From positions 1,292,081 to 1,356,080 of the forward strand of contig CM018606.1 of assembly GCA_009192285.1 (NCBI GenBank): a DNA stretch of 64,000 nucleotides, given 5' to 3'. The notes under the pieces are model-generated. The model did not search any database, was not told where the DNA came from, and saw only the letters and a list, made by a program, of their open reading frames with translations. Both the position numbers and the translations under genes were made by a program. Shown piece after piece: positions 14,701 through 60,631 of the stretch (the stretch's first letter is position 1; every line of letters begins with the position of its first letter). The stretch is from Morchella semilibera. Taxonomy: Eukaryota > Ascomycota > Pezizomycetes > Pezizales > Morchellaceae.

Positions 14701-17700
14701 ACCCACACACCCGAGTACATATAGATGCATACATACACGCGTAAATAAACATCTATATAGTACAAGTACATGTACTTAAGTGTATGCATGGCTGTCTTGA
14801 GTGTTGGAAGTACTAGATGTACAGTACCAAGAAGGGGGTTGGGGTCCCCACAATATTCCCATTGATACACTAGCAATGGCATTCCTCTAATGCCTGTTTA
14901 ATTCGATATTCGTCACTAAATTCCACATTCCGATGGTCTAGTGAATTCACCCCGTTTTCTCACACTGCATATACGTACCTATTTACTACGTGTGTGCTTT
15001 AGAAAGACTCCGCCGCATATATATAGGTACATGTAGCTTCAATCAGAGGGTTCGGTCAGAGGGCCAACCCATGAAATAGATGAACTACCCGGGCCCAGGT
15101 CTGGCCCAGCCCAAGAAGCCATAAGCCTCTCCAGAAAAATCTGCCCCTTTATGGGCTGTTCAAGTCATCCCGCAACCCGACCTGCTAATTGACAGCTCGG
15201 GACATAGCAAACGTAGAGGTCTATAAAAAGTAAAAACAAAACTTACGTGCTATATAACACTGAATGCCGTTTTTCTAGTTGGAAGAAATGGTGCGTATGC
15301 TTTTTGAGCACATCTAGCGCTCCATACGTTTACCGCTCTATACATATAGCTTTCGATCCACCCATAACCTAGTGCCAGGGGTCGCGTCGTGCTTTCAGTA
15401 ATAATATAATGATTATTTATAGTTTATATATGTTTAAATACCTACAGTCTATTCTCGACCGTTGGCGAAATTGGGCACAACATTTATTGGATAGCCAAGT
15501 ACGTCAAATCTTGGCGTTGTGACACAACTCCGTTGTAACCCCGCCTCTAAGCACGAGAGCATTCACAGCCTTTATCATACTAGACACTCCCGATCGGCCA
15601 ACACAAGATATTATCCGGAGGAGACAACAATTATTTCATCACTATGGCTGAAGCTCTAGGGCTTGCAGCTAGTATCATCGCGGTACTTCAAATTACAACA
15701 TCGGTGGCATCTCTGAGTTATCAATACCTCAACAGCGCAGTCCGAGCGCCTGACAGTCTTCGTGAACTTACGCTCGAGCTTCAAGCACTCATATCAATCC
15801 TAGTGAATCTGAAGATATGCGCACAAGACCCTCAAGCAGTGGTTTTACGGACACTAGAAAGCTCATTACATATATGTCATAAGGAGATGCTGCGGCTGCA
15901 GGACAAGTTGAAGCCCAGGAAAGGCACCTTCAGCTGGTTACGGTGGCCCTTAGACGAGAAAGATATTCAGGGGTATCTATCGCGGATGGAAAGATTCAAG
16001 AGTTCATTTTCGCTTGCTCTTGAGGCAGATCACGCGTACGTAATCCATTTCATGAAACTTTAGGCATTAACTTAGCCGCGGTTGTAGCGCCCGCGTAAAT
16101 TTAGTTGTGGATAGTGTTCGAAAGGTGGAAATCAGGATGGGGGGTTTAACGAGTTCTCAAAATTGCCAGACGGAAAGCCATAAAGAACGTAAGAGGAGCC
16201 TTAATTCAACTCAAAGTCTACTCCAAAAACATCTTTGGGCTAAGATAAAACCATGATCCAAAAGAAAAGCGGCGTGATGTTCTCAACTGGCTGTTTCCAG
16301 AGCCCTGCGACAAAAGGCATATTGAAATCAGTAGTCAAAGGAAAGAGAACACGGGCCAGTGGATATTTAGGACTCAAGAGGTTCAAGACTGGATTAAAGG
16401 AAATTCGAATTGTAGGCTGCTATGGGGATATGGTATCCGTATGTGCCCATTCCCATATCCCGGTACATTGACGCATTAAGCCACAAGATTAACCCACATT
16501 GCTTCTAGCGGGTGCTGGTAAAACATTCCTGAGGTATATCCACTTATAAATATATGTGTACATAAAAAGGTTTAATCTAATTTTCGGCAGCTCGTTGGTT
16601 ATAGATCATATTCAAGGGCTCCACCCGAATAACGGAGTTGGATATATCTATTTTAACTTTAAAGAGCAACAACAACAGACACCAGTCAATACCCTTTCAA
16701 GCCTTGTGAAGCAGCTTGCACTCAAAGCTAAAGTCTTACCTAAAGCGATTGAGGAAGCGCATGCGAAAGACACAAGACCTACGCTTGGTCAGTTATACGA
16801 CGTTCTTCTGGAAATTAGAAAGTCATTTACACAAACCTTTATAATATTTGATGCCTTGGATGAATGTGATCAAGTATATCAACGGGAGAGATTACTACCG
16901 GTGTTCCATCGCATGGGAGACGCTGGCATGAGTCTGTTCTTGACAAGCCGTGAATACCCAGAGGACATTCAAGAGTCATTCACAAATATCCCAAAGCTGA
17001 GACTTATGGCTCAAAATGAGGATATCTCAAGTTATATTGAACAAAAAATAGCCGAATTCCCTTGAGCTAAACGTCTGATATTAAGCCAAGGGGATAGTGG
17101 CTTGAAGGAAAAGATAATTTCAGCTCTCCAAGAGTGTGCTAACGGAATGTGAGTCAAGATCCTTTACTGTAATAAACTAAGGGCTTAAGTTGATGTCCGT
17201 TCAATAGGTTTCTCCTTGTTCGTTTTCATATTGAGTGCCTCTGCCAGCAGACAAGCCTGAAACAGATCCTCGCAGAGCTTGAAAGCATCAAAAGTTCGTC
17301 GAGCAAAGAGTATCCTATGGATCCCACCTATGACAGAGTTTGGAAAACGATCTACATGCAGCCAAAAAGCTGCATCAGGCTGGCACACAGAGTGATATCA
17401 TGGCTTATAAAAGCCCGAAGAGTACTTACGGTTCGCGAATTACAACTTGCAGTGTCGGTGGAGCAGGACAATACCATTTTCGATGAAGATAGTCTACCAG
17501 ACCGCAAGACTCTGCTGGACGTCTGTGCGGGCTTAGTAACTATTGATGAAGGAAGTGGTCGTGTTAGGTTTGTACACTTTACTACTCAGGAGTTTCTTGT
17601 TAGGAAGCAACTAGTCCCCGATGACGCAGATCTTCAAGTGGCAATAGCTTGCGCGACCTTTCTTTCCTACGACGTTTTTTCAGCAGAACGTTATTCCAGT

Positions 17701-17828
17701 ATAAATATCGACTCATATCCATTGATAAAGTATGCGGCCTGCGAACTCAAGTATCATCTTAAAAAATGCAATGAGCCCTTGACAATGGAGATCATACGGT
17801 TTCTTAGCAGCAAAGGAAACACCAATTC

Positions 17829-17933
17829 TTATATGCACCAAACCAATGATTACATGCTCCAAACCAATGATTACATGCTCCAAACCAATGATTACATGCT
17901 CCAAACTAATGATTACATGCTCCATAGTTCTCC
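17829..17933 (+). repeat. 21-bp coding minisatellite (DYMLQTN)
   Basis: Inside the NACHT-ankyrin gene a 21-bp unit is repeated about five times head to tail, encoding (N)DYMLQTN, with the first copy reading YMHQTN. Copies differ by one or two bases, so the expansion is recent. Confidence 0.85.
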
Positions 17934-18096
17934 GGAGGGAGCTTATACATATAGTGCACTTGAGGTCGCGGCCCACCTAGGAAGCAATTCTGTTGTCTCG
18001 CATTATTTAAGAGAGAGAGAAGATATCAATTCACCCTTTTTCCAAATAGATCTAAGTGCGCCGTTTGTGAGGGCAGCTAGTTCTGGAAGCGATTGT

Positions 18097-19170
18097 TGTG
18101 TAAATCTACTGCTTGATAGTGGTGCCGATGTCAACTGCCGGGACTTAGGCAACAGCACAGCCCTGCATCGGGCAATACCTGGGGGTCATGAATCGACGGT
18201 CAAGCTACTTCTTGAGAGGGGCGCCAACCCCAACCTTCGATTGGGCGGAAGAACGGCCTTGATGGTGGCAGCAGAGGGTGGGCACGGGGCTATTGTGAAA
18301 CTACTGCTTGGGGGTGGTGCCGACCCCAAGACTCGGGATTTATACCAACATACGACGCTGATGGTGGCAGCAAGGAATGGGCATGAGGCGACAGTCAAGC
18401 TACTTCTTGAGAGCGGTTCCGATCCCAACCATTGCAATTCAAACGGAGATACGGCCCTAACCCTAGCTGCATGGAGGGGTGAAGCGACAGTCAAGCTACT
18501 TCTTGAGAATGGTTCCGATCCCAACCATTGCAATTTAAACGGAGATACGGCCCTAACCCTGGCTGCCGAGTATAGGAATGAGGCGACAATCAAGCTACTT
18601 CTTGAGAGCGGCTCCGATCCCAACTATTGTAATCCAAACGGAGATACGGCCCTAATCCTGGCTATCGAGTATGGGGATGAGGCGACAGTCAAGCTACTTA
18701 TTGAGAGCGGCTCCGACCCCAACCATTGCAACTCAGACGGGGATACGGCCCTAATGCTGATTGCATGGAGGGGTGGAGCGAAAGTCAAGCTACTTCTTGA
18801 GGGCGGTTCCGATCCCGACTATTGTAGTTCGGACGGAAGTACGGCCCTAACCCGGTCTGCCGTGTGCGGGGATGAGGCGGCAATCAAGCTACTTCTTGAG
18901 AGCGGTTCCGACCCCAACCACCGCAACCCAAACGGAGATACGGCCCTAATCCTGGCTGCTGCTGCATGGAGGGGTGAAGCGAAAGTCAAGCTACTTCTTG
19001 AGAGCGGTTCCGATCCCAACCATTGTAATTCAAACGGAACTACGGCCCTAATCCGGGCTGTCGGGATTGGGGATGAAGCGACAGTCAAGCTACTTCTTGA
19101 CAGTGGCGCCAACTCTAGTATCACAAACCACCGCGGTAAGACGGCCCTAGACATTGCAAAAAGCTGGAAG
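18097..19170 (+). repeat. near-identical ankyrin repeat array
   Basis: About eleven ankyrin units. From about 18390 onward the units share the framework ATVKLLLESGSDPNHCN and NGDTALTLA almost word for word, while earlier units are more diverged. Several units lack a residue in the helix (AAWRGEATVKLL). High internal identity is the known signature of repeat shuffling in fungal NLR recognition domains. Confidence 0.85.
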
Positions 19171-19221
19171 CGCAAAAGCATAGTCCAGATGCTTGAGGAG
19201 GCAATGGAAGGCAATATCTGA

Positions 19222-20036: not shown

Positions 20037-22714
20037 CTACGCAACCACCTCCTCCCTCTCCTCCACCACAACCTCAACCCTCTCCTCCACAACCCTCTCC
20101 TCCTCCTCCTCCACCCCCTCCTCACCGCCCCCCAAACCCCTCTGCGCGCGCACCTCCTCCTCAACGCGTGTGCGCCACGCGCGCCACTCACTCAACATGC
20201 GCATGCGCGCCTCGACAACCTCCTTGTTGGCCGCCTCGCTCTCAAACAGGTCCTCCTCGTCGAAAGCGCGCGAGTACTCGCGCAGGTTCTTGCGGATTGC
20301 CTTTTGCGCGGAGGGCGTCAGGAGCGTGGGCGGGCGGGGCCGCCAGAGGAGTTGCTTGAACTTGTCGAGGTGCGTGGAGCGTAGGAGGGTGCCGCGGAAG
20401 TCCCAGATGTGGTAGCCGTTTTCCATCTAGACGAGAGGGGGGGTTAGTATGGTTGATTTGGGGGGATAGGGGGGAGGGGCATAGTTGATAGAAAGGGAAT
20501 AACGGGTAATGATAGACATGCTATCACGCCGAGTGATGGGCCATGACAGACAAGAAAGGGAATGAGTGACAGCCCGTGACACCACGCGAGTGACATCCCA
20601 TGACCCAACCCAACCCAACCTCAAGCCAAAAAAGCCAAAAGAAAAAATGAATACATACCGGTGTCTTCCACACACTCGTACTAGTAACGACATACCTGCC
20701 AGTAGGATCCCACTCGACGTCCGTAACGCCATAGTGCTCACCAACGGCCATGAGCGCCAGGTTCGCCGCCACATCCTTCACCCTCCCCCCAGCAGTAGCA
20801 GTGGAGGCGGGGGTTTCGGCCTTGACCTTTTCGCCCTCAAAATCGCAGTCCCAGAACTCGAGCTCGTACGACAGCGAGCTGTGGACCGTGGCAACAAGCA
20901 CGAACCGGCCGCGCGGACACCAGTAGATGGCGTTGCAGCTCTTACGGTCACACGTGCGCACCAGCGTGAACTCTCCCGTCCCCGTCCCCGCACCTGCCGC
21001 TGCGCCGCGGGTCTTCTCGGGCGCATAGAAGTGGACGCTCTTGTGTGTCCCTCCTGCACCCCCCCCTGCGCCACCACCAGCGGTGGCAGCACCACCGGCC
21101 GGGGGGGCCGCATCCTCGGCCGCGATGAAGACAAACCTGTCGCCGTTGGGCTCCCACGCAAAATTGATGATTGACTGCTTGAGCTCGATGATCTCGACGG
21201 GGATGTTCTTCTCCTTGATGCGGAAGAATTCGAGCGACGTGAAGGTGGACTTTTTGGTCTTTGTGTGGCGGTCGACCTTGACGCAGAGGTATTTCCCGGC
21301 CGACTGCCAGTGTAGCTTGCAGTCGGTTACGTTGACGAGATTGCGCGTGCGGATGGTGTTGAGCGAGGGGAGGGACATGAGTGTGACGCGCGCGGTCTGG
21401 TTGTTGATTTCGGGGGTCCAGAAGGCGATGAGGTACTCGGCTACGGCGGGGATGGGGGCGGATTGCTTTTTGTTGTTGCCTGCGGCAGCGGTGGTAGTGG
21501 TAGTAGGAGCTGGAGGGGGGACTTGCGGGCACCATTCAAAGTCGACAACACCATCAATCTTGATAGGTTTCTTGCCCAGGAGAATCATCGATGGCGCCTC
21601 ATAGACCTGTATTGCCTGCCCCGGCACCACCCTCGCAACATAACGGCCGTCCGCGCTCCACTTGAACACCGGCCAAGTGACCGTCTTCCTAACAACCTCG
21701 ATCAAATCCTCATCCGGATTCTCCACGGCCGCCGGAAATGACCTCAGCAGCTTCCCCGTCCTGATGTCCCACACAATGAAGCTGTGGCCCTCCTCCTCGG
21801 ACCCCAGCGGGAATCCCGCCGGCAGCGCGTCAGGAAGAGTGATAGGCTTGTTGCTCCACGTCACGAGGTACCGCTCGCACGGCGAGAAGTCAATCAGATT
21901 GACGCTCGGGTGCGCAAAGCGCATAACGCGCTTCCAGGATGGGCCGCCCCACAGCTGCACGCCCTGCTCGTGCACGCTCGTCAGGTACGTCCCCTGCGGG
22001 GACCACTGCACGAACGACTCTGTCCAGCCAAAGCGGTCGATCACGGGGTCCGGAGCGTCCTTCTTGCGGTTCCAGAAGACGCCGACGGTGTCGCCGCGGT
22101 AGAGGGCAAACTGGTCGCGGCAGGAGGTGTCGCCGAGCCAGGAACGGAGGTGCTCGGATTCCACGAAGGGGTCGATGGACGGTGGGGTGTAGGCGTCGGG
22201 GACGCGGCCGGGACGGCCAAAGTGTTCAATGTCGGTGAGCTTGTTGACGGCGATTTTGTGCTTCTTGTCCAGGGGGGTTCCGTGGAGGATCTTGACGGCG
22301 AGGAGGGCTTGCTCGGGGGTTTCGTATTCGACGAAGGCGTAGCTGGTGGGTAGGTAGTGTTAGCATTGTAGAAGTAGACGGGGAAAAAAAATTAAAAACA
22401 GTATAAAAACTCACCCCTCGGTCATTCCTGTCTCTGCATCAATGGGCATAAAAACCGCCTCTGGCTTTGTCCTCCCAGCCTCACGGAGCCTCTTGCACAG
22501 GAATTTGATGAGGCGGTCCTTGTTGTCCTCCGAGACGATGGGGCACCCGTCCACGACCACGAAAGTGTCCAGGCCCTCGTCCAGTCGCACTGCGTGCTGC
22601 TCTATGAGGTCTGTTTTTCATGTCAGCGAGGCGAGGGGTTGGGGGGGGGGGGGACGGTGATGTTGGCACACCTGAGAAATCGATATCTTCACCATCATCA
22701 CTGTGCGGCGCCAT
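20037..22714 (-). CDS. second eIF3b (PRT1-like) protein, GC-rich paralogue
   Basis: Translation initiation factor 3 subunit b homologue, 770 aa. Exons 22714-22672, 22610-22415, 22342-20659, 20426-20037; lengths sum to 771 codons with no frame break. Starts [17 protein letters not shown] with RNP2 FVVVDGCP and RNP1 GYAFVEY; the propeller region contains [17 protein letters not shown] and WDPTGRYV; the C-terminal exon starts [10 protein letters not shown] and has [11 protein letters not shown], the part that in eIF3b binds eIF3i/g, then an acidic tail. All three introns sit at the same codons as in the gene at 58204-60631. It differs by Thr/Ala-rich and Gly-rich inserts (around [10 protein letters not shown] and GGGAGGGAGG) and by near-exclusive G/C third positions. 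The last intron (20427-20658, 232 bp) is unusually long and carries three copies of the 18-nt motif. Not a pseudogene on this evidence. Confidence 0.92.
20530..20604 (+). repeat. three direct copies of the 18-nt motif
   Basis: CGAGTGATGGGCCATGAC (20530-20547), TGAGTGACAGCCCGTGAC (20563-20580) and CGAGTGACATCCCATGAC (20587-20604) lie in the last intron of the GC-rich eIF3b gene, antisense to its transcript. Confidence 0.85.
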
Positions 22715-23106
22715 GATGGATGGAATTGTTTATGTTTTACTTGATGGGGTATATAGCAAGGGATGTAATTTCTATTTGGGGTTGGGTTTGGTGGGGGAGA
22801 GGGGGGGGAGAAGTAAGAGTTGTGGTTGGTTGGTTGGTTGGTTGAGAGGATTGAGAGGATGGGTGGGATGGGAAAGCAGTCCAGTGGTTTTTAAGTTACC
22901 CGGTCTGATTTTTATTTATTTCTTTGGGTGTGGGTGTGGAGGGATGAATTGAATAGAATTGACGGGTGGATCAGTGTGGGTGGATGGATGCGGACATGTG
23001 CAGCGGGAGGGAAAAGGTGCTGGTTCGATCATTGATAGGTATGGGTTAGGGTTTGTAATAGTGACAACGGTTATGTAATTAAGCAGTGTGGGTTATATTA
23101 GCAGAA
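22715..23106. other. upstream region of the GC-rich eIF3b gene
   Basis: Contains (GGTT)n at about 22832-22850, G-rich runs and a telomere-repeat-like GGGTTAGGGTTTG at 23043-23055. No gene is seen. It presumably includes the promoter of the eIF3b paralogue. Confidence 0.5.
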
Positions 23107-23445
23107 GGGGAATATATCAGTGCACACCCCCACCCCCCCACATCCCCCCCGAGATCACCTCAGCCGAAGTGCCCCGCGCCCTCTCCGCCTCTTCCAACAA
23201 TTCGGCTCCCGGCCCTGACACCTTCCCTCCAGTGGTATGGAAGAAGGTACACACAGCCAACCCTCGCCTCCTCCCCTTGCGCCTCTCCCCCCTCCTGAAG
23301 GCAGGGTTCCACCCCTCAAAGCTGAAAACCGCCTTCGCCCGGCCCTTCGGTGTCATCCCCCCTAAGCCCAGCATACAGAATCATCGTCCTCTTGGAAACG
23401 ATCTCCAAGTTCCTAGAAAAAGGGGCTAACTCTTCCGATTTTATT
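23107..23445 (+). mobile_element. LINE (Tad1-like) reverse transcriptase fragment
   Basis: The frame reads EITSAEVPRALSASSNN and SAPGPDTFPPVVWKKV, the segment that precedes the RT palm in fungal Tad1-type non-LTR retrotransposons. After about 23365 the continuation AYRIIVLLETISKFLEKG is in another frame, so the copy carries at least one frameshift. Only about 340 bp remain: no endonuclease, catalytic YADD or tail is seen. It sits between the extra eIF3b gene and the PD-(D/E)XK-like gene. Confidence 0.75.
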
Positions 23446-23733
23446 CAATATATATAGCTAGAATATGAGTGGGGTTTGTAATGATATTTTTTAAGACTCT
23501 CCTGGGGCTTTCCCCAGTTTTCTGCGGTTTATTTGGGATTTATTCGTCTTATTTGAACGTTGATCATTGACCCGGTCGCTTCCCCGGTGAAGCACGTTAC
23601 ATGGAAATAGTGCCACACACCATTCAAGTGCCAGATTAATTACCCGGCCTAATTGCAAGCAGGTATATAGGGTGGTGTCCCCCGCCTTTGGGACAAGAAA
23701 GCGCAAACTCCCTTACGAAGGATTTCCAGCATC

Positions 23734-24531
23734 ATGTTCAGACAACTCAGCCGTCAGACTGTCAATGCTCTTCCTAGGTTCCGCTTTGTGTCCTCGCGTC
23801 CGGTACACAGCACTCCCGAGCAGCAGTGGACTACCCCCTACTCCAAGATGATCCAGGCAGACGCAGAGGAGAGGCTGGGCGTTAGACTAGAATTACTGGC
23901 TACCTTTCCAGCTCAGAAATTGCTGGATGAAGCAGGGTCTATGGTTGCGTGGAAGGATACCATCAAGGAAATTAAGGAGCAGGTTTATAACGGCATAGTA
24001 AGACATCTCCGGTTCGAAGGCTATCCTTGGGAGGCCAATCCGGATTTCAACGGGGCCAACATCAGCGACTTGGTCTACATCACCCTCCACCCTATTCTTT
24101 CGGGTTTCATTGATAAGACGGGACGCTGTTTACGCTTACGGAGGAAGAAAGAGATTGTTGCGGTGGACACTGTGACGGAGGGATTTGTTGTGGTGGACCT
24201 GACTTCGGTGGAGGAGGATATGCTTCTTTTCGTCGTAGAGGCTAAGAAATCTTCTCTTGGAGAGGCAGTCAAGCAGTGTTTGCTGGCGATGAAGGATATG
24301 AGGGACAATAATGGTGGAGGACAGGTTTACGGCTTCGTTACAACGGGGGAGAGTTGGCGGATGCTTAGCTACGATGGTACATCGTTTCGAACGACACGCA
24401 AGATTGAGCTTGTATTTGATGGGATGGATCAGGAGAAAGCGTTATGGATGAAAGACTATTCGGTTCTAGTGGACTGTATAGTCGCCGCACTGAGCAATGG
24501 GGTTCTGGGAGGACCTTCTTGTGGTAACTAA
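23734..24531 (+). CDS. putative mitochondrial PD-(D/E)XK nuclease-like protein
   Basis: Single-exon, 265 aa. Residues 1-28 (Arg/Ser-rich, no acids, MFRQLSRQTVNALPRFRF) look like a mitochondrial presequence. The body has the pattern of the PD-(D/E)XK fold: VVVD (D155), a beta strand with E169-x-K171 (VVEAKK), then Q181 in the following helix, and GFVTTGESWRML further on. Family membership is inferred from this spacing; substrate and role are unknown. The ATG at 23734 is the first in frame and gives the targeting peptide. Codon use is mixed, unlike the very GC-rich genes on either side. Confidence 0.6.
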   Translation: MFRQLSRQTVNALPRFRFVSSRPVHSTPEQQWTTPYSKMIQADAEERLGVRLELLATFPAQKLLDEAGSMVAWKDTIKEIKEQVYNGIVRHLRFEGYPWEANPDFNGANISDLVYITLHPILSGFIDKTGRCLRLRRKKEIVAVDTVTEGFVVVDLTSVEEDMLLFVVEAKKSSLGEAVKQCLLAMKDMRDNNGGGQVYGFVTTGESWRMLSYDGTSFRTTRKIELVFDGMDQEKALWMKDYSVLVDCIVAALSNGVLGGPSCGN

Positions 24532-25508
24532 TTTGTTCAGGTAATATCACTATTTTCGCACGGGGACCGATGGGAGGAAGCGAAGGGATTGTGTATCATA
24601 GTTAATGTTTATTTAAATAATTTCAACCCTTTTTTTTTTTATAAAAAATCGCGAGAGGGGCCCCGAAAGAGTTTGGTTGTCTCATTACAAAACGGCCTGA
24701 CGAGTGTTACGGGATAGGGTCGGGGGACTGGGGCGAGGCAAGGTGTGCAAAGGAAGAGTGCTTAATACTGTAGGAGTCTGAACGTGTAGAACGGAACAGT
24801 ACTTGGGATGGAACATGACAAGAAACCTACGGTGAAACCAAAAAGCACAACTGAGGACGGGCTCAGGAGTAATCGCAGATGTAGAGGTAATAGTCAAATA
24901 TGTTTAACAGAGATACAATAAAGAACTATGAGACAGACCAAGAATCGAACCCCAAGGGAAGGGGTTAATAATTGAACGTTATGTAAGGAAAGAAAAAAAG
25001 AGAGATCAAAGGAAGCCCAACCTATACTTATGTATACCTCACGGTGGCTAATGCGCCGTTGTAGTCGATATTAGTAGTCGAGCTACTAGTCTGCGGCGTA
25101 TTGTCTCAGACACGAGCCATGTGGTGACATTGGACGCAGTAACTAACCCAGCCCTACAGATTCAAGTAATTGCCTTTCTTGGGTGTTAATTTCCCGGTGC
25201 AGGAATATATACATGTATATATATATAGCGGGGGCCTGCATGCAGTACTAATTGTGTCTTGGGGTGCGTTAATAGTAGTAGTAGGATTAATAAGTATAGC
25301 AATGTCAGCAAATATATGTGAAGAAAATATACCAATATACCCTCTTTAAGATATTAATTAGCACTCCTATCATACTAATAACTCCCCGGTCACCAACCCG
25401 GGCCCCGGCATGTAGTTGTTACCCTGCCTTCTCACCCAAACCCCACCGTGGGGTAAAACCAACAAGCCGAATCCCGGTGCAGCAACACCATAGACAAACC
25501 CGCACACG
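24532..25508. other. intergenic, no gene seen
   Basis: AT-rich with a T run at 24629-24640 and a tatacatgtatatata stretch at about 25208. A B-box-like sequence on the minus strand near 24940 has no partner A box. The last part is presumably the promoter of the EMW1-like gene. Confidence 0.5.
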
Positions 25509-28214
25509 ATGAGCGCCCCCGACACCACCACCATCTCCGACCGGGAATGGTCTCTAATCTCCGGCACCGCCCTCCCCGCCGCCCCCTCCCCTCCCGCCAC
25601 TCCCGCCCACCACCTACTCGCCCTCGTCTCATCCGGCGACTTCCACTCCGTCTTCACGCACCCCGCCGCCACCGCCCTCCTCACCCCCGACGATGCCACC
25701 CCCCTCCGCGAAACCCCCGACTACACCGCCCACCTGCACCAGCGCCTCGCCGCCGCCCCCCCCAACACAGACCCCCACACCCTCCTCGCCCTCGGCATCG
25801 CCGCCCTCTGGTCCTTCATCCAAGCCAACGTCACGGGGCCCCCCCTCCCCTTCACCCCCTCCTCCGTCCTCCTCCCACCATCAATCACCACAGACCCAGC
25901 GCTGACCGCCCGCCTCGAGAAATCCGCCATCGACTCCCTCGCCGTCGACGGCGAGACCGCATACCACCTGATGCCGTGCGCGCTCCTCCTAGCCCTCTCC
26001 AAAGCGCTGCTAACGCACGAGCGGACGGGCGCGGCGCCCACGGCGCCGTGGTGGCGCATGCGCATCAACTTCTGGCACCAGCGCGTGCTGAGCGAGGCGA
26101 CGGCCGCGCTGCACGACGCAATCTACGCGGACATCCGCGCCGTCTCTGTCCTTGCCGGGGCGCGCGGCGCGGGCGTGCAGGCCCGGTTCCTCGTCGAGCG
26201 CGCGCTGGTCGATACGTATTTCGGGCATGACGGGAGGGCGCTGCGCGGGCTGGAGGAGGCCGCGGAGCGCACGGGGTTGCGCTATGCGCTGACGGGGGTG
26301 ATGGGGAAGCGGACGCGGTTCCAGCAGGGCGATACGAGCCAGCTGGTTGTCCTTGCGCGGAGCGCTGGCGGGGAGGCGGAGAGCCACCGGGAGGGGCCAA
26401 AGGCGCTGAGGCTGGACGACGACACGCTGCTGGAGGCCATTGCGTTCACGCCAAAGAGCACGGCGGTGGTGGAGGAGACTTCGGGGCTTCCCCGGGAGCT
26501 GCAGGGTCTGGACCCGGGTGAGCAGCCGAAGCTGCAGCCGCTGGACGCCGCGATCTTGCTCCTGGTCGCCGAGACGATCAAGAACACCAACCCCGCCGAG
26601 GGCCTCACGCGCGAGGAGATGATGCCCTACGCCGAGCGGGTCCTCAAGCACCGACAAACTGGGAGGTCTACACCCTCGGCCTCCTGGTGCGCTCAAAGAT
26701 GGAGGGGTACCGCTCCCGCACGGTCGAGCGTGGGCTCCTCCAGCTGCAGGCCGTCGTCGACCAGGTCATCGCAGACACAACGCAGTCCGCCGACCCGGCC
26801 GCCAAAAACACAACAGCCACCTTCCTGCCGCGCGCAACGGAGGACGAGGCCGCCCCGGTCCGCGACCGCCTCCTCTACATCCACCAGCTCTCGGTCCCGA
26901 CGCGCTGGGACCTCGAGGCCGAGCTCGCCTCCCGCTGGATCTCGATGGGCGGCCTCCGCACCGCACTCGACATCTACGAGCGTCTGCAGATGTGGCCCGA
27001 GGTAGCACTGTGCTGGGCCGCCACCGAGAAGGAAGACAAAGCGCGCTCCGTCATCCACGCGCAGCTCTTCGACCCCCCCACCAGCACCACCGAGACCACG
27101 CCGCCGCCCGCAAACGCACCCCGCCTCTGGTGCATCCTCGGCGATATCGACAGCAACCCGGCGCACTACGAGCGCGCCTGGGCAGTCTCTGGCCACCGCT
27201 ACGCCCGCGCGAAGCGCAGCCTCGCGCGGCACCACTTCTCGGCGAGGGACTATGCCGCGGCGGCGGCAGCGTATACGGCTTCGCTCGCCGTCAACCCGCT
27301 CAACCATGCGTCATGGTTCGCGCTCGGGTGCTGCCACCTGGAGATGCAGGAGTGGGATGCGGCCGTCGACGCATTCACGCGCACCGTCTCGCTGGACGAC
27401 ACCGACGCCGAGGCATGGTCAAACCTTGCCAGCGCCCTCCTACGCCGCACCACCACGCTCCCCGCACAGCCCGAATGGCGCGCCAGCGCCCCCGACGCCA
27501 CCCCCGCAGCAGCCGAAGACCCCCAACAAGCGCAGAAGGAATCCAACAAGCGCAGCGCCCTCTCAGCGCTCAAGCGCGCCAGCGCCGCCAAACACGACTC
27601 CTGGCGCATCTGGGAGAACCTACTGATCATCGCGGCCTCCGTCGCCCCCCCAGCATGGACCGACGTAGCCGTATCCATGGGGCGCATCATCGCGCTGCAG
27701 GGCGCCACCGCCGGCGAAACCTGCATCGACGTCGACGTGCTGGAAATGCTCGTGCGCCACGTCGTCACCTCCAACCTCGACGCCGCACGGCCCCGGGCTC
27801 GCCAAGATGGTCGTCGACCTCGTCGAGCGCGAGGTCACACCACTCATCACCCGCCGCGCCCGTCTGTGGCGCGTTGTCGCGCGGCTGGCGCTATGGCGCG
27901 GCCGCCCGCGCGATGCCCTGGATGCGGAGGAGCGCGCGTGGCGCGCAGTCTCCTCGGCCCCTGGCGCAGTCGATACGACCGCTGAGGCGTGGGCGGCGCT
28001 GGTCGACGCCACGGTCGAGCTCGTCGGCGCGTATGAGAGCCTGGGGCCGCTGCAGAGGACGGAGGGGCTCGGCGCGGGCGAGCCCGTCGAGAGGGCGTGG
28101 AGGTTTAAGGCGCGCAGTTGTGTCAGGGGGGTTATGGGCCGCGGGAGGGGCGCATGGGAGGGGGGTGAGGGGTGGGAGAGGCTGGTGGGCGTCTTGGAGG
28201 GGCTGGTGGAGTAG
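25509..28214 (+). CDS. emw1: EMW1/TTC27-like tetratricopeptide protein (two apparent frameshifts)
   Basis: About 901 aa, intronless, in the size range of TTC27/Emw1, a conserved TPR protein (essential in yeast, linked to cell-wall integrity and RNA/ribosome functions). Support: LTGVMGKRTRFQQGDTSQLV, typical of the family's middle, and TPR motifs such as NPLNHASWFALGCCHLEMQ and DDTDAEAWSNLASALLR. Frame breaks: near 26651 a C appears missing (then NWEVYTLGLLVRSKMEG resumes), and at 27791-27794 a C appears extra (then GLAKMVVDLVEREVTPLI resumes). Both lie in C runs and cancel, so start and stop agree. I read these as likely consensus errors. Third positions are almost all G/C. Confidence 0.82.
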
Positions 28215-29610
28215 GGCGTGGGTTTCTTTCTTTCCCTCTTCTCTTCTCTTTGTCTTTGTGGGTCGGGTCTTGTGTAGATTAACTGGTAGAATAAAAGTTT
28301 TTCCCCTCCTGCTTCTTCTAGTCATGTGAGTATAAATGAAAAAGTGCCATTCGAAACCCATACACAACTCTCCAGCAGAACGAGATACCAGAAATATAAG
28401 TATACCAGGAAATACATCTGTAAAGACGTAGATTCCGTGCCAAGACGGCCGAGTGATCCCCCATGACCCACACCACACCACCACTGCGTACACCACGACG
28501 GTAGGCATGACGCTTAACGCACGGTCGAAACAGACAACCTTACCTTTACCTGTAGACTGGAGCGCCCACCCCACCTCAAGCACAGTAAGCGCCAAGACCG
28601 AGTGATGGCCCGTGATGCAGAAACGTCCAGTCCTCTTGAAACACCGGGTTGGGGCGGCTGTAGGCATGGGGGTATGCTGCGTTCGATACGGTGGGGGGGC
28701 GGGTTTCTGGTAGTGGGTCTGGATATCCCTTCTGGCGGAGTGTTTGGGTGGCATAGCAACCGGGCGAACCGGGCGTAGCAACCGGGCGGGATAAACAAAC
28801 CAGACACTCGGGTAGGTGCGCCGGGATGTTAAAATGCATGTATCAACACCATACAACCACCAGCTACACCCTGAACCCGGGGGGGGGATATAGTGGCCGC
28901 CCCACACAGCGGACAGTGGGAGGCTTATTACCTACTGCCCGGGGGTGAGGGACGTGGGCTTGAGAAGACAGACTACCGTCCTCCACCATCACACAACCGG
29001 GGATTCTCGCCTCTGTTTACGAGATGTCCGCACCCAAATACCTATATTCCAGGGTTAGGGTTGGTATCGGACCGCCGGTACCCCTTTCTCGCCGCGACTG
29101 AAGGGGGATCTCTCAAATAAAGGGTTGCGCTCATGTATTTCCAAGGGCTGTTCATTTGGGTCGCTGGGTCCGGGTGAGAGCTTTTACGGCCTGGGTCGTG
29201 GTTGGGGTGTACTGATTAATTAATATCGATTCGGAGGTGTATTGACTTTGACATTTCCGGGACTCCAGATATCTTGTCAAGACGGGCTGCTTGTTACTCA
29301 TTTGCAGTGCTTGGTCTTGTCTGGTGGCCTGCAGTTATTGCTTCATGCGCAGTCACTCGAGGGAATATTCCTGTGGCGACGTCGTGATTTACGCTCAACC
29401 ACACGCACGCATCGACCACGGCCAATATCAATACACAACAGACAAACCAGACATCGCCGACCTCAGCTATAAACACACACATCCACCGGAGTGGCAGAGC
29501 ACATCAAGCATCTTGGCCCAGTTCCTGACAGGGTTAGGGGTTCTTTATAATTATCCACTATCAAAAACAACCTATTCCCACATCCAACCTCCACCCCCCC
29601 ACGCCCCAAA
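28215..29610. other. intergenic between emw1-like and rrn6-like genes
   Basis: Holds three copies of the 18-nt motif (28450-28467, 28599-28616, 29342-29359 reverse), a small tandem gcaaccgggcg repeat at about 28757-28790 and telomere-repeat-like AGGGTTAGGG at 29051 and 29530. No gene is supported. Confidence 0.5.
29530..29540 (+). promoter_or_regulatory. telobox-like site upstream of rrn6
   Basis: AGGGTTAGGGG, 70 bp before the rrn6-like start codon. TTAGGG-type sites are known binding sites of Myb-like telobox factors in fungal promoters of ribosome-related genes; the role here is inferred. A second, AGGGTTAGGGTTGG, is at 29051-29064. Confidence 0.35.
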
Positions 29611-32307
29611 ATGCTCACCGACACGACCCGCCCCCCGCTCTACTCCCCCTCCCTGCATAAATGGCTGCACCACCTCCGCGCCCCAGACCGTACGTCCCCC
29701 TCCCCTCCCCCCCTTCACACCCACCACTAACACCCCCCCCCCAGCGCAGCACACGCTGCACCCCATCACCCCACCGACAGCCCTACTACCCGCCACCTAC
29801 CACCCCCCCCGCACCGCCCGCGCCCGCCTCAAATGCTCCAAGACAGAGTGGTGGTACCGGTGCCTCGCGCAGGACGCGCCGGAGACGGGCGCCGCCGTCG
29901 GCCACATCGACGCCCTCCTCGAGGAGAGCCAGGTGCTGACAACATGGGGGGAGCTGCTGGACCCGTGCGTCGGCAGCCTGCTCGCCTTTGGCTGCGCGCT
30001 CGACGAGGACACCAGCACGCGCTACACGGACACAGTCGTGTATGCGGCGGGGCGTGTGGGCGCGGACGTGGCGGCGGGGGGCGTCGTGGCGGGGTGGCGC
30101 GCCCTCGGCGGCGTGGAGGTGGGCGTGCGTGGGGTTGAGGCCCCGGCGCGGGTTGTGGCCTTGGACAGCCGGGTCAGGCAGCTGTGTGTGGCGGGCGGGG
30201 AGGACGAGGCGCGGAGATGTAAGTGTGTCTTGTCTTGCCCTGGGGGTGGTGCTGACGGGGTGGTAGCGGTTATGGCGGTGCGCACGGCGGGGGGATCGAC
30301 GCTGTATCGGCAGCGGAGGATGCAGGTGCCGTTGCCGGGGTGTGCGTCGAGGCTGGCGGCGGTCCCGTTGTCAGTGTCCCTGCCGGGACGGGCAAGCGGG
30401 TCCATGCCCATGTCGAGATCAACCCGTGGTATGAGAGGCAGTTCGGCACCATCGATGAGGGCGGTAGGTGGCGCGTCTACGACATCGAGGGCGCGCAGGC
30501 AAGGGACTGGCGCATCAGGTCCAATGCCAAGGCGGTGGACATGGCAAGGGGGTATGTGGGCTCGGAGGGGGGGGGCGGCGGCGGCTGGGGGAGGCTGCTG
30601 TGGGGGGCGGACGTGAATAGCGTTATTGCCTGTGACAGGAGGAGGGCCGGGCTGTTTGATATCAGGGTGAGTGGGCTTCTATTTTATACTACTTATAGAT
30701 TCTAACCAGAGCTATATACAGGCAAGCCCCTCCTCAAGATCCGAGATCCCCCATCCCCGTGCACCAGGGCCTCGAGCAAGGCCTCATCCTAGACCTCCAG
30801 CGCGGCCCCCCCCGCCGCCGCAGGCACAACCGACGTCTTCCTCCTCACCACCTCGACCCTCTCCTGGCACGACCTGCGCAACCCTTCCACCCCGATCCTC
30901 TCCCTCCCGCACTACCGCCACCAGAACGACATCTCCCTGGCCATGTCCCTGGTTCCCATCGAGCCCGCGACAGCAACCACGAGCGTGCTCCTCTACTCGC
31001 GCATCAACACCCTCATCACGTCCTTCCTCTTCGCGCCGAACCCCGCCGAGACCTTCCCCGTGACGCTCGGCCACCCCGCCAGCGTCCCCGGCCTGGCCCC
31101 GCGAACCGCCGACGCCCCCGTCCAGCTCACGCTCGCCGTCCTCCCCACCCCCGCCCGCCAGCGCGGCACCGCCGCCGCAACCGCCCCCGACGACGCCCGC
31201 TTCTTCACAGCATACAGCGTGGCCGCCGACCTCTCCATCACGCAGCGCACCTACAGCACCCACGCACACCCAACCCCTCTCGCCCCCCCCCGCAACCGCA
31301 CCATCAAAAGCGCCTACCTCATCCCCTCCTCCCCCACCACCTCCTCCGCCGAGGACGCCCCCCCGCCCACCTCCTCCCCCCGCACAAACTTCCGCCCCCT
31401 CTACACCCACGCCTTCCCAACCACAGACCCCACGCTGCGCACAGCAGACCAAACACACCCCGCGGCAGCCTACGCCGCCCGCCTCCACGCAGCCCTCGAG
31501 CACCGCCTCCGCCGCGCCGACCTCGGCATCGTCTCCCTGCGCGACCTCTCCCAGCCCGCAATGCTCTTTCCCAGCCTCGACGCCCTCGCCCACGCCGTCG
31601 GGACCCTCCTCGCCGACACACCGGCCCTCGCGCCCTACCGCCGCCGCTCCCTCCTCCCCGACCCCTCCTGGGGCGCGGACTCCCCGGAGGCGCTGTATCA
31701 GCGCCTCCTCGCCGCGTGGGTCCCTGGTGCCGCGCCGCCCCGCGTCAGGTTGCATCGGGAGCGCGTTGCGAGGCGGTTGGCCGCAGATATGTTCCTGGCT
31801 GCCGTGGGCGTCAATTTGTTGCCGAAGCCGGAGCCGGAGCCCCCGGGGGTCCAGCTGGAGCAGTCCCACCCCCAGTCCAAGTCTCAGTCCCAGTCCCAGT
31901 CCCAGTCCCTGCCGGAGCAGCAGCAGCAGCAGGAGCAGCAGAAGGAGCACGTCCTTGCGATACGAACGTACGCGAACGTATCCGCGCGCGTCACGCTGCC
32001 AGAGGGAATGGCCGCCGTGCTGGCCCGCTGGGAGGTGGGCGCGGATCCGGCCGACGTCGAGTATGTCCCCGACGACGACCACGGCGGCGGCGGCGTCAGG
32101 CGCGCGGCGAGGAGGAAGAAGAAGGCGGAGAGGTGGGATGCGGGGACGGGGACGGTGCCGCCGGCGGTGGTGGTGGGGAGTCAGGTGGTGGGGAGCAGTC
32201 AGGTGGCGCCGGTCGTCATGAGTCAGGTTGAGAGGGGAAGGCATGGGGGTCGACCCTCCGCCTCCGCCTCTGCGGCGGGGAGGAAGAAGAGGAGGACGGG
32301 GTTTTAG
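29611..32307 (+). CDS. rrn6: RRN6-like RNA polymerase I core-factor subunit (several apparent frameshifts)
   Basis: Probable Rrn6, the beta-propeller subunit of the Pol I core factor that helps start rRNA transcription. Exons near 29611-29689, 29745-30218, 30267-30666 (or 30670) and 30722-32307. Support: HAHVEINPWYERQFGTIDEG, RLLWGADVNSVIACDRR, DVFLLTTSTLSWHDLR, LPHYRHQNDISLAMS, a low-complexity Q/S tail, and the basic C-terminus KKRRTGF seen in fungal Rrn6. Frame changes occur in C runs at 30364-30366 (one short), 30755-30758 (one short) and 30806-30813 (one extra), so the annotated protein will look broken. The last donor is ambiguous (GTGAGT or GTGGGC). A dense GC-rich antisense frame over the last exon is a composition artefact. 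Confidence 0.72.
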
Positions 32308-58203: not shown

Positions 58204-60631
58204 CTACGCGACCTCCTCCTCGTGCTCGCTTATGACCTCCTCCATAATCTCCTCGATGACGGTGTCCTCCGCCTCATCCTTCTTCTGCTGGGCCGCGTTT
58301 GGGTCCTCGGGCAGGCCGCGCTCGACACGCTGGGCCCTGAGGTCCTTCTCGACCCGCTCTCTCCATGCGCGCCATTCATCGAGCTGTCTCTTCCGTGCCT
58401 CGACAACCTCGCGGTTGGCGGTCTCGGCCTCGAAGGTGTCCTCTTCGTCAAACTGTCGCGAGTACTCACGAATGTTCTTGCGGATGGTCTTCTGCTCTTC
58501 CTTGGAGAGCATGGTTGGTGGGCGGGGACGCCAGAGGAGCTGCTTGAACCGTTCGATGTGCTCTTCACGGAGAAGAGTTCCCTTGAAATCCCAGAGGTGG
58601 TAGCCGTTTTCCATCTATAGATTATGATTAGTGCATGTAGATAAAGAGACGGCCATAGAGAAACATACAGCATGCCTCCACATGCTCACGCTGGTGGCAA
58701 CATATCGCCCAGTGGGGTCCCATTCAACATCGGTCACGCCGTAGTGCTCAGAGGTGCCCATAAGTATGAGGTTTGCAGCTACATCCTTATTCTTAGTCTC
58801 TGGCTTCTGCTTCTCACCTTCAAAGTCGAAGTCCCAAAATTCGAGGTCGAAGCTCTGCTGCGAGTGGACGGTGGCAATCAAGACGAAGCGACCCCTGGGA
58901 GACCAGTAAATGGCATTGGAATTCTTCTTTTCAACAGTTTTCACAAGGCAGAATTCGCCAACACCGCTCCTGACTTTCTCGGGGGCGTAGAAGGAAATGT
59001 TTGTCTTGGGGGCCACAGCGGCGCCCTGAACGACTTCGTCGGTGGTAATGAAAACGAAACGATCGCCCTTGGGTTCCCAGGCAAAGTTGACTACTGTTTG
59101 TTTAAGTTCGACAATTTCGACCGGAATTTCCTTTTCCTTCACACGGAAGAATTCGAGAGAAGTGTAGGTTGACTTCTTAGTCTTGGTATGCTTATCAACT
59201 TTAACACAGAGATATTTGCCTTCAGACTGCCAATGAAGCTTGCAATCTGACACGTTCACCAAATTTCGTGTACGAATGATGGTCTGTGAAGGAATGCCCA
59301 TAAGGGTAACACGGGCAGTTTGGTTGTTCACTTCTGGGGTCCAGTAGGTGAGCATCTGTTCAGGCTTGAATTTTCCCTTCCCTTCTGGGATTGAAGGAGA
59401 CCACTCGAAGTCGACGACACCCTCAACCTTGACCGCTTTCTTTCCGAGGAGCATCATGCTAGGTGTTTCGTAGATTTGAATGGCTTGTCCAGGGAGGACA
59501 CGGGCAACGTACTTGTCGTCCGATGACCATTTGAAAACGGGCCAGTTAATCTTCTTGCGTCCTAAAGCCTTGACACCCTCATCTGCATCGTTCGCAGCCT
59601 CAAGAGAGGTAAATGACCGCAATAAGTTACCTGTCTTAATATCCCAGACGATAAAGTTCTTGCCATCTTCGTCTGCGGTGAGAGGAAAGCCTGGCGGTGG
59701 GTTCTCGGGGATCGAAATAGGCCTATTCGACCAGGTGACAATGTAGTTTTCGTTGGGTGAGAAATCGACTAAATTGGCAGCAGGATGGGCAAACCGCATG
59801 ACACGTTTCCAGCTTGGACCACCCCAAAGCTGAACACCTTGAGCATGGACGGAGGTGAGGTATGTTCCTTGGGGAGACCACTGGACAAACGACTCGGTCC
59901 AGTGTAACCTATCAACGACTGGATCTGGCTGATCCTTCTTTTTGTTCCAAAACACACCCACGCTCTCACCACGGTACATGACAAACTGATCACGACCGTT
60001 AGGCTCGCCAAGCCAAGAACGGAAATGTTCCCTCTCAACATATGGCTCAATCTCAGGCTCCACATACTCTTCTTTGATACGTCCTTCCCGACCAAAGTGT
60101 TCAATATCTGTAAGCTTGTTGATAGAGATGGTGTGTTTTCTGTCGAGTGGCATACCGCTCAACTGCTTACAAGCAGCAAGCGCCTGTTCGGGGGTCTCGT
60201 ACTCAACAAATGCGTACCTGAACCGTCGTCCTCAATATGGCGTCCTCTGGCATGAAGCAACAAAAAAACTAGAAACTAGAAAACAAAAAAAACCCACTGG
60301 CGAGGCCGCATGGCGAACTTACCCTTCGGTCTTGCCTTCGGCGTTCAGAGGCATTGTAACTGAGTCGGCCTTTATCTTTCCAACTTCACTCAATTTCTTG
60401 GACAAGAACTTGATCAATTTGCCCCTGTTCTCTTCCGGAACGATAGGGCACCCGTCAACAACAACAAATGTATCAAGTCCTTCATCAAGTCGTACTTCAT
60501 ACTGTTCTCGGAGATCTACACATTCAAAAGTCAAAAATTGCTGGAAAAAATATAGAAAGCTGAAAAAAGGTCCATTACTCACCTGAAAAATCAATATCTT
60601 CATCATCGTCATATGAGCTATGGGGCGCCAT
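58204..60631 (-). CDS. prt1: eIF3b (Prt1), translation initiation factor 3 subunit b
   Basis: Scaffold subunit of eIF3 in cytoplasmic translation initiation; 733 aa, as expected for fungi. Exons 60631-60583, 60515-60323, 60217-58669, 58614-58204 (734 codons). N-terminus [19 protein letters not shown] with FVVVDGCP and GYAFVEY; beta-propeller segments [17 protein letters not shown] and [15 protein letters not shown]-terminal exon [10 protein letters not shown] with [12 protein letters not shown] and an acidic end HEEEVA. Ordinary codon use, like its neighbours, and shares a 202-bp divergent promoter with pus1. It is therefore the more likely ancestral-locus copy compared with the GC-rich gene at 20037-22714. 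Confidence 0.96.

Follow-up and report, generated by a model that had tools for sequence, protein, structure and literature searches.

Two eIF3b genes on one strand

The window, by which we mean the whole 64-kb stretch of DNA analysed here (G000:C4:1292081-1356080, on scaffold C4), comes from a morel genome of which 56,756,124 bases in 23 contigs were searched. It carries two genes for eIF3b, referred to below as copy A and copy B:

20037..22714, minus strand: eIF3b copy A (GC-rich), four exons (22714-22672, 22610-22415, 22342-20659 and 20426-20037), 770 aa by spliced translation
22611..22671, minus strand: copy A intron 1, 61 nt, phase 1, GT..AG, at the codon that matches copy B intron 1
22343..22414, minus strand: copy A intron 2, 72 nt, phase 2, GT..AG, at the codon that matches copy B intron 2
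20427..20658, minus strand: copy A intron 3, 232 nt, phase 0, GT..AG, before MENGYH, as in copy B intron 3
58204..60631, minus strand: eIF3b copy B (ordinary composition, slower-evolving), four exons (60631-60583, 60515-60323, 60217-58669 and 58614-58204), 733 aa by spliced translation

The splice sites of both copies were placed by eye, without RNA, from the GT..AG ends, the reading frame and the alignment to the other copy. A preliminary description of this DNA had reported two complete eIF3b genes about 36 kb apart on one strand, with introns at three matching positions, and both statements held up. The gap between the copies is 35.5 kb, the strand is identical, and the proteins are 68.4% identical over 722 aligned residues. 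The coding sequence of copy A comprises 771 codons including the stop, with no internal stop and no frame break over 2.3 kb. All three introns interrupt aligned codons in the same phases (1, 2 and 0), with lengths of 67, 105 and 54 nt in copy B versus 61, 72 and 232 nt in copy A. These common introns indicate that copy A arose by DNA copying, and rule out retroposition as its origin. Two alleles of one gene can also be ruled out, since both copies lie on one scaffold at this distance from each other.

No larger duplicated block was seen: of the 29 ORFs that are 60 aa or longer and lie at 14-35 kb, just two matched the region at 45-64 kb, both at eIF3b, and one of the two is an antisense frame of eIF3b exon 4. 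A genome search with copy B returned no third full eIF3b gene, the full genes being found only on scaffold C4, along with two further weak matches (28% identity, E 5e-5) at corresponding places on scaffolds C12 and C13. No relatives of copy B were found in collections of prokaryote genomes and viruses. To our knowledge a single eIF3b gene is the norm in fungi, which was the premise of the preliminary description, and a literature search, done almost wholly without full texts, found no report of a fungal eIF3b duplication.

Several scaffolds of this assembly come in pairs that match at corresponding places, namely C9/C10, C12/C13 (99.7% identical over 10 kb) and C21/C22 (from one match pair). 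In an assembly reported to come from a monospore strain, such pairs would be either copies that were not collapsed or the trace of a second nucleus type.

In both proteins, RRM_1 and PF08662 (eIF2A) score above their Pfam cut-offs, at 27.0 bits (cut-off 20.7) and 131.7 bits (cut-off 20.5), respectively, in copy A. The best PDB chain for copy B is 4nox_A (E 1.4e-301). The preliminary description had also noted that both copies keep the RRM and the C-terminal WRPRPPT, and that copy A carries Gly/Ala/Thr inserts, and the alignment bears this out. WRPRPPT and EWRAWR are present by sequence in both copies. The propeller is likewise kept, that of copy A being aligned over its full length with three PDB sequences (4nox, 4uer and 6ybt), and the Thr/Ala- and Gly/Ala-rich extra segments of copy A fall at loops whose length varies in these outgroups also. 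Within the RRM, GYAFVEY of copy A aligns with GFLFVEC of the yeast chain, an RNP1-like strand; this yeast stretch is the one termed rnp1 in the account of PMC5153249. An AlphaFold prediction for copy A exon 3 (561 aa), made from a two-row alignment, had a mean pLDDT of 41.3, too low to add evidence on the propeller.

Genes in and beside the GC-rich island

Three features lie between copy A and position 32.3 kb:

23734..24531, plus strand: 265-aa ORF of ordinary GC, belonging to a multicopy family of this genome by nucleotide matches of 22715-25500
25509..28214, plus strand: TPR-type gene, GC-rich, read as ORFs, whose middle piece (26651-27799) scores above the Pfam cut-offs for TPR repeats
29611..32307, plus strand: RRN6-like gene (Pol I initiation factor), GC-rich, with Rrn6_beta-prop, Rrn6_HB and Rrn6_K-rich above the Pfam cut-off on 30793-32307

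A search with 22715-25500 gave 44 other matching pieces, several per place, of which 43 are spread over 14 other scaffolds. Most of the 44, namely 39, lie in or beside the 265-aa ORF, and five lie further left. This ORF family, for which no Pfam or NCBIfam match was found, also occurs at G000:C4:1262453-1263387, and its longer pieces mostly share 64-73% DNA identity, while the start of the ORF often shares 79-88%.

The TPR-type gene, which we take to be EMW1/TTC27-like, has no TPR match in Pfam on its other two pieces. The piece used in the genome search gave one strong match and elsewhere just one weak match of 27%. The frame of this gene shifts near 26.64 kb and near 27.80 kb while the third-position GC periodicity runs on. 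No intron that would account for the shifts was seen, and they point either to indels left uncorrected in this very GC-rich DNA or to a broken gene. The assembly paper does not use the word 'polish' in its main text (PMC7014384). The frame of the RRN6-like gene changes at about 30.2-30.4 kb and at 30.65-30.8 kb, and short introns may explain some of these changes. The piece of this gene that was searched matched a single place in the genome, and 29840-30220 matched no Pfam family. The frame breaks in these GC-rich neighbours make local sequence quality or gene integrity uncertain. The intergenic DNA at 28215-29600 matched only itself in the genome, which favours neither a native nor a foreign origin.

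On its other side, copy A is adjoined by an ORF at 17194-19218 (plus strand) with ankyrin repeats, a GPIID_WHD domain and tandem units of 191-294 nt. The 4-kb stretch left of copy A contains short dispersed repeats that are found on many scaffolds (40 of 244 candidates were scored).

GC is raised at coding third positions

Copy A had been described as extremely GC-rich. Its GC is indeed raised, with a GC3 of 0.791 compared to 0.586 for copy B, but only to a moderate level (61.8% over the CDS), and the extreme part of the island is formed by the neighbours at 25.5-32.3 kb. Here four 1-kb segments have 67-72% GC, and 1-kb segments of at least 65% GC number four among the 64 of the whole window versus none among 200 sampled ones. 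GC3 is 0.897, 0.867 and 0.860 in the three pieces of the TPR-type gene, and 0.898 and 0.891 in the RRN6-like gene. In comparison, 54 sampled ORFs, each 200 aa or longer and drawn from 20 stretches, have a mean GC3 of 0.513 (SD 0.090), with none at 0.79 or above; these ORFs were chosen mechanically, so that some are perhaps not genes, and the stretches include both C12 and C13, which are 99.7% identical there. ORFs that presumably encode CAD and BRR2, names assigned from translations as were EMW1, ICP55 and VPS45, have GC3 values of 0.51 and 0.52.

The high GC of the island sits mostly in coding third positions. The intergenic DNA in and beside the island has 42-53% GC, and introns 1, 2 and 3 of copy A have 64, 36 and 50%; the genome GC given for M. 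crassipes is 47.3% (PMC7014384). Among the 494 codons that encode the same amino acid in both copies, 184 have G or C at the third position in copy A and A or T in copy B, and 48 show the reverse. The amino acids lean in the same direction. Changes private to copy A include 24 to GARP residues versus 11 from them, and 26 from FYMINK residues versus 14 to them, whereas the corresponding numbers for copy B are 7 and 5 for GARP and 7 and 11 for FYMINK.

A GC3 of at least 0.65 was found for six of 27 ORFs in ten stretches of the flanks within 50 kb on either side, and for none of 27 ORFs in ten other stretches, a small sample with three stretches from the same scaffold and seven from other scaffolds (Mann-Whitney p 0.016; Fisher p 0.023, for a threshold picked after the data were seen). 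At about 1.24-1.41 Mb of scaffold C4, ORFs with GC3 of 0.66-0.75 are scattered amid ordinary ones on both sides of the island. ORFs in this range are unlike those in the sampled stretches of other scaffolds, possibly reflecting a compositional trend along the whole of C4.

Copies A and B are sisters

We built a tree of five rows, consisting of the two copies and the PDB outgroups 4nox, 4uer and 6ybt, such that one outgroup is from Pezizomycotina and the others are yeast and human. We take 4nox to be from Chaetomium thermophilum, a Sordariomycete, and 6ybt to be human. The 763-aa chain derived from 4uer is most likely S. cerevisiae Prt1, given that its C-terminus fits a PRT1 primer printed in PMC5153249.

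The maximum-likelihood tree groups A with B with a support of 99.6/98. The two rival topologies were rejected under LG+G4 (p-AU 0.014 and 0.005) and under LG+F+R4 (p-AU 0.022 and 0.002). Counts of site patterns agree, with 21 sites for A+B versus 14 and 7 for the alternatives when human is the fourth row, and 26 versus 11 and 9 when yeast is. Nothing in this tree, which includes only one other Pezizomycotina protein, points to a distant donor.

The sister relationship of A and B relative to 4nox places the duplication after that split. The shared stem has a length of 0.191 and the branches to A and B measure 0.351 and 0.112, that of A being about three times longer. At the pace of copy B, the age of the split between A and B is 0.112/0.303, or about 37%, of that of the 4nox split, a rough estimate from a single gene. 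The split from the Sordariomycetes is perhaps several hundred million years old. If so, the duplication should predate the genus Morchella, and other morels would be expected to have copy A too. The dates given in PMC7014384 are about 34 My for yellow versus black morels, about 93 My for Morchella versus Discinaceae, and about 205 My for Morchella versus Tuberaceae.

Constraint on copy A and its rate of change

Between the copies, NG86 dN is 0.249, and NG86 dS is saturated and so has no value. Of the 149 columns that are identical in all three outgroups, copy A keeps 131 and copy B 133; nine are lost in both, nine in A alone (including His, Ser, Pro and two Glu) and seven in B alone. The copies differ from each other at 18 of these 149 columns versus 161 of the 469 others. 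Neither a disrupted frame nor a loss of constraint, as would be expected of a pseudogene, was found for copy A, which by these comparisons has been held by purifying selection.

Whether copy A evolves faster depends on the reference, and a clear acceleration is seen only against the nearest outgroup. With respect to 4nox, copies A and B are 54.5% and 62.2% identical, with 92 and 38 private changes in columns of three rows and 79 and 36 in columns of five rows. Matches to yeast are private to A at 28 sites and to B at 42. However, copy A is no more diverged than copy B from human eIF3b (43.6% versus 42.7% identity), and private matches to human number 39 and 33, respectively.

Discussion

Three origins had been considered for the GC-rich copy in the preliminary description: an old duplication with a specialised eIF3 variant, introgression from a GC-rich relative, or an assembly join of foreign sequence. 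An old duplication fits the sister grouping of A and B, their common introns and the purifying selection that the sequence of A shows. We consider it probable that copy A is a native eIF3b paralogue, an old duplicate kept by selection, although intron 1 of copy A, at 64% GC, counts against this reading. If a GC-rich relative within or close to the Pezizales had donated copy A by introgression or horizontal transfer, possibly along with the GC-rich genes next to it, so that it came to lie beside the native gene, this would account for the GC3 of three genes (0.79, 0.86-0.90 and about 0.89) lying outside that of all 54 sampled ORFs, and the tree is also compatible with a donor inside the Pezizomycetes. 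Yet the searches found no second native copy of the TPR-type or the RRN6-like gene, so that transfer would need two replacements and one addition. Moreover, copy A is separated from the TPR-type gene by a member of a multicopy family of this genome, the GC of the intergenic DNA is close to the genome average, ORFs of intermediate GC3 flank the island on both sides along the scaffold, and the three intron positions are common to both copies, all of which make transfer unlikely.

The single-match genes and the multicopy family within the island, together with the dispersed repeats left of copy A and the absence of any N run from the 64-kb window, disfavour a recent foreign block and a bad join alike, while an ancient introgression would still be compatible with them. 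An artefact or contamination, in which foreign sequence was joined into the scaffold, could explain why composition changes sharply at about 20 kb and at 32-33 kb. The assembly contains near-identical scaffold pairs, and according to the assembly paper, on M. crassipes (PMC7014384), it was made with merging, mate-pair scaffolding and gap closing. Against this, raised GC3 extends beyond the island, no other full eIF3b was found in the genome search, and A and B are sisters in the tree; we judge such an artefact very improbable. A different possibility is that copy A is native, redundant and heading for loss, still intact but with no distinct role. Its longer branch, the nine universal residues altered in it alone, its loop inserts and the frame breaks in the neighbouring genes would all be in keeping with decay. 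However, the frame has stayed intact over the whole CDS although dS is saturated, and universal sites are retained nearly as well as in copy B, so we think impending loss quite unlikely.

If copy A is a native paralogue, the duplication would have taken place in the line leading to morels, with copy B remaining ordinary in composition. Around copy A, coding third positions would have risen to high GC in this gene and in its single-copy neighbours alike, and the likeliest driver would be GC-biased gene conversion acting where recombination is active. Relative to 4nox, copy A changed more than copy B and leaned to amino acids with GC-rich codons.

The most economical reading is that copy A makes a working eIF3b, given that the RRM, the propeller and the C-terminal part, including GYAFVEY and EWRAWR, are all kept by sequence. 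The RRM of yeast eIF3b is reported to contact eIF3a (and eIF3j), its propeller to contact the 40S subunit, and its C-terminal segment to carry eIF3i and eIF3g (PMC5153249, PMC4151992). The protein encoded by copy A would thus enter the eIF3 core by way of its RRM (eIF3a/eIF3j), its propeller (40S) and its C-terminal helix (eIF3i/eIF3g), and could there either supply eIF3b from a second gene or act as a variant subunit in some tissue or stage. More tentatively, morels may have two eIF3 cores set by eIF3b, with the GC-rich copy being specific to a stage such as the sclerotium or the fruiting body. Among the subunits g, c and j, we saw no sign of wholesale eIF3 duplication: eIF3g and eIF3c are each found once on C9 and once on C10, a near-identical pair, and eIF3j is found once.

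In yeast, eIF3b/PRT1 is described as one of five essential core subunits of eIF3 (PMC3836723). If a second eIF3b has indeed been retained under selection in an edible fungus, heterogeneity of a core eIF3 subunit becomes testable there, and, if the two-core reading is true, a normally invariant core initiation factor would have been turned into a specialised pair. In addition, an apparently native cluster in which coding sequence, and not the DNA between genes, has a GC3 of about 0.9 offers a clean case for studying a local rise of GC in a filamentous fungus.

Like the eIF3b/Prt1 proteins of PDB 4nox, 4uer and 6ybt, copies A and B have the full order of RRM, propeller and C-terminal helix. In contrast to them, two diverged genes are present in one genome, one with Gly/Ala/Thr loop inserts and GC-rich codons. 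Fission yeast, for which distinct complexes defined by eIF3e and eIF3m have been described (PMC1173091), sets an example of a fungus whose eIF3 comes in more than one composition. There, differing PCI subunits join a common core, whereas in the morel the gene for a core subunit is itself duplicated.

Clusters of GC-rich genes have been ascribed to GC-biased gene conversion, an example being the GC-rich arm of Lachancea kluyveri. The morel island resembles such clusters in its local rise of GC, in the leaning of protein changes to GC-coded residues, and in that its genes seem to be native. Unlike them, it spans about 12 kb, is mostly exonic in its GC rise and includes one duplicated gene, with conversion as a candidate mechanism here.
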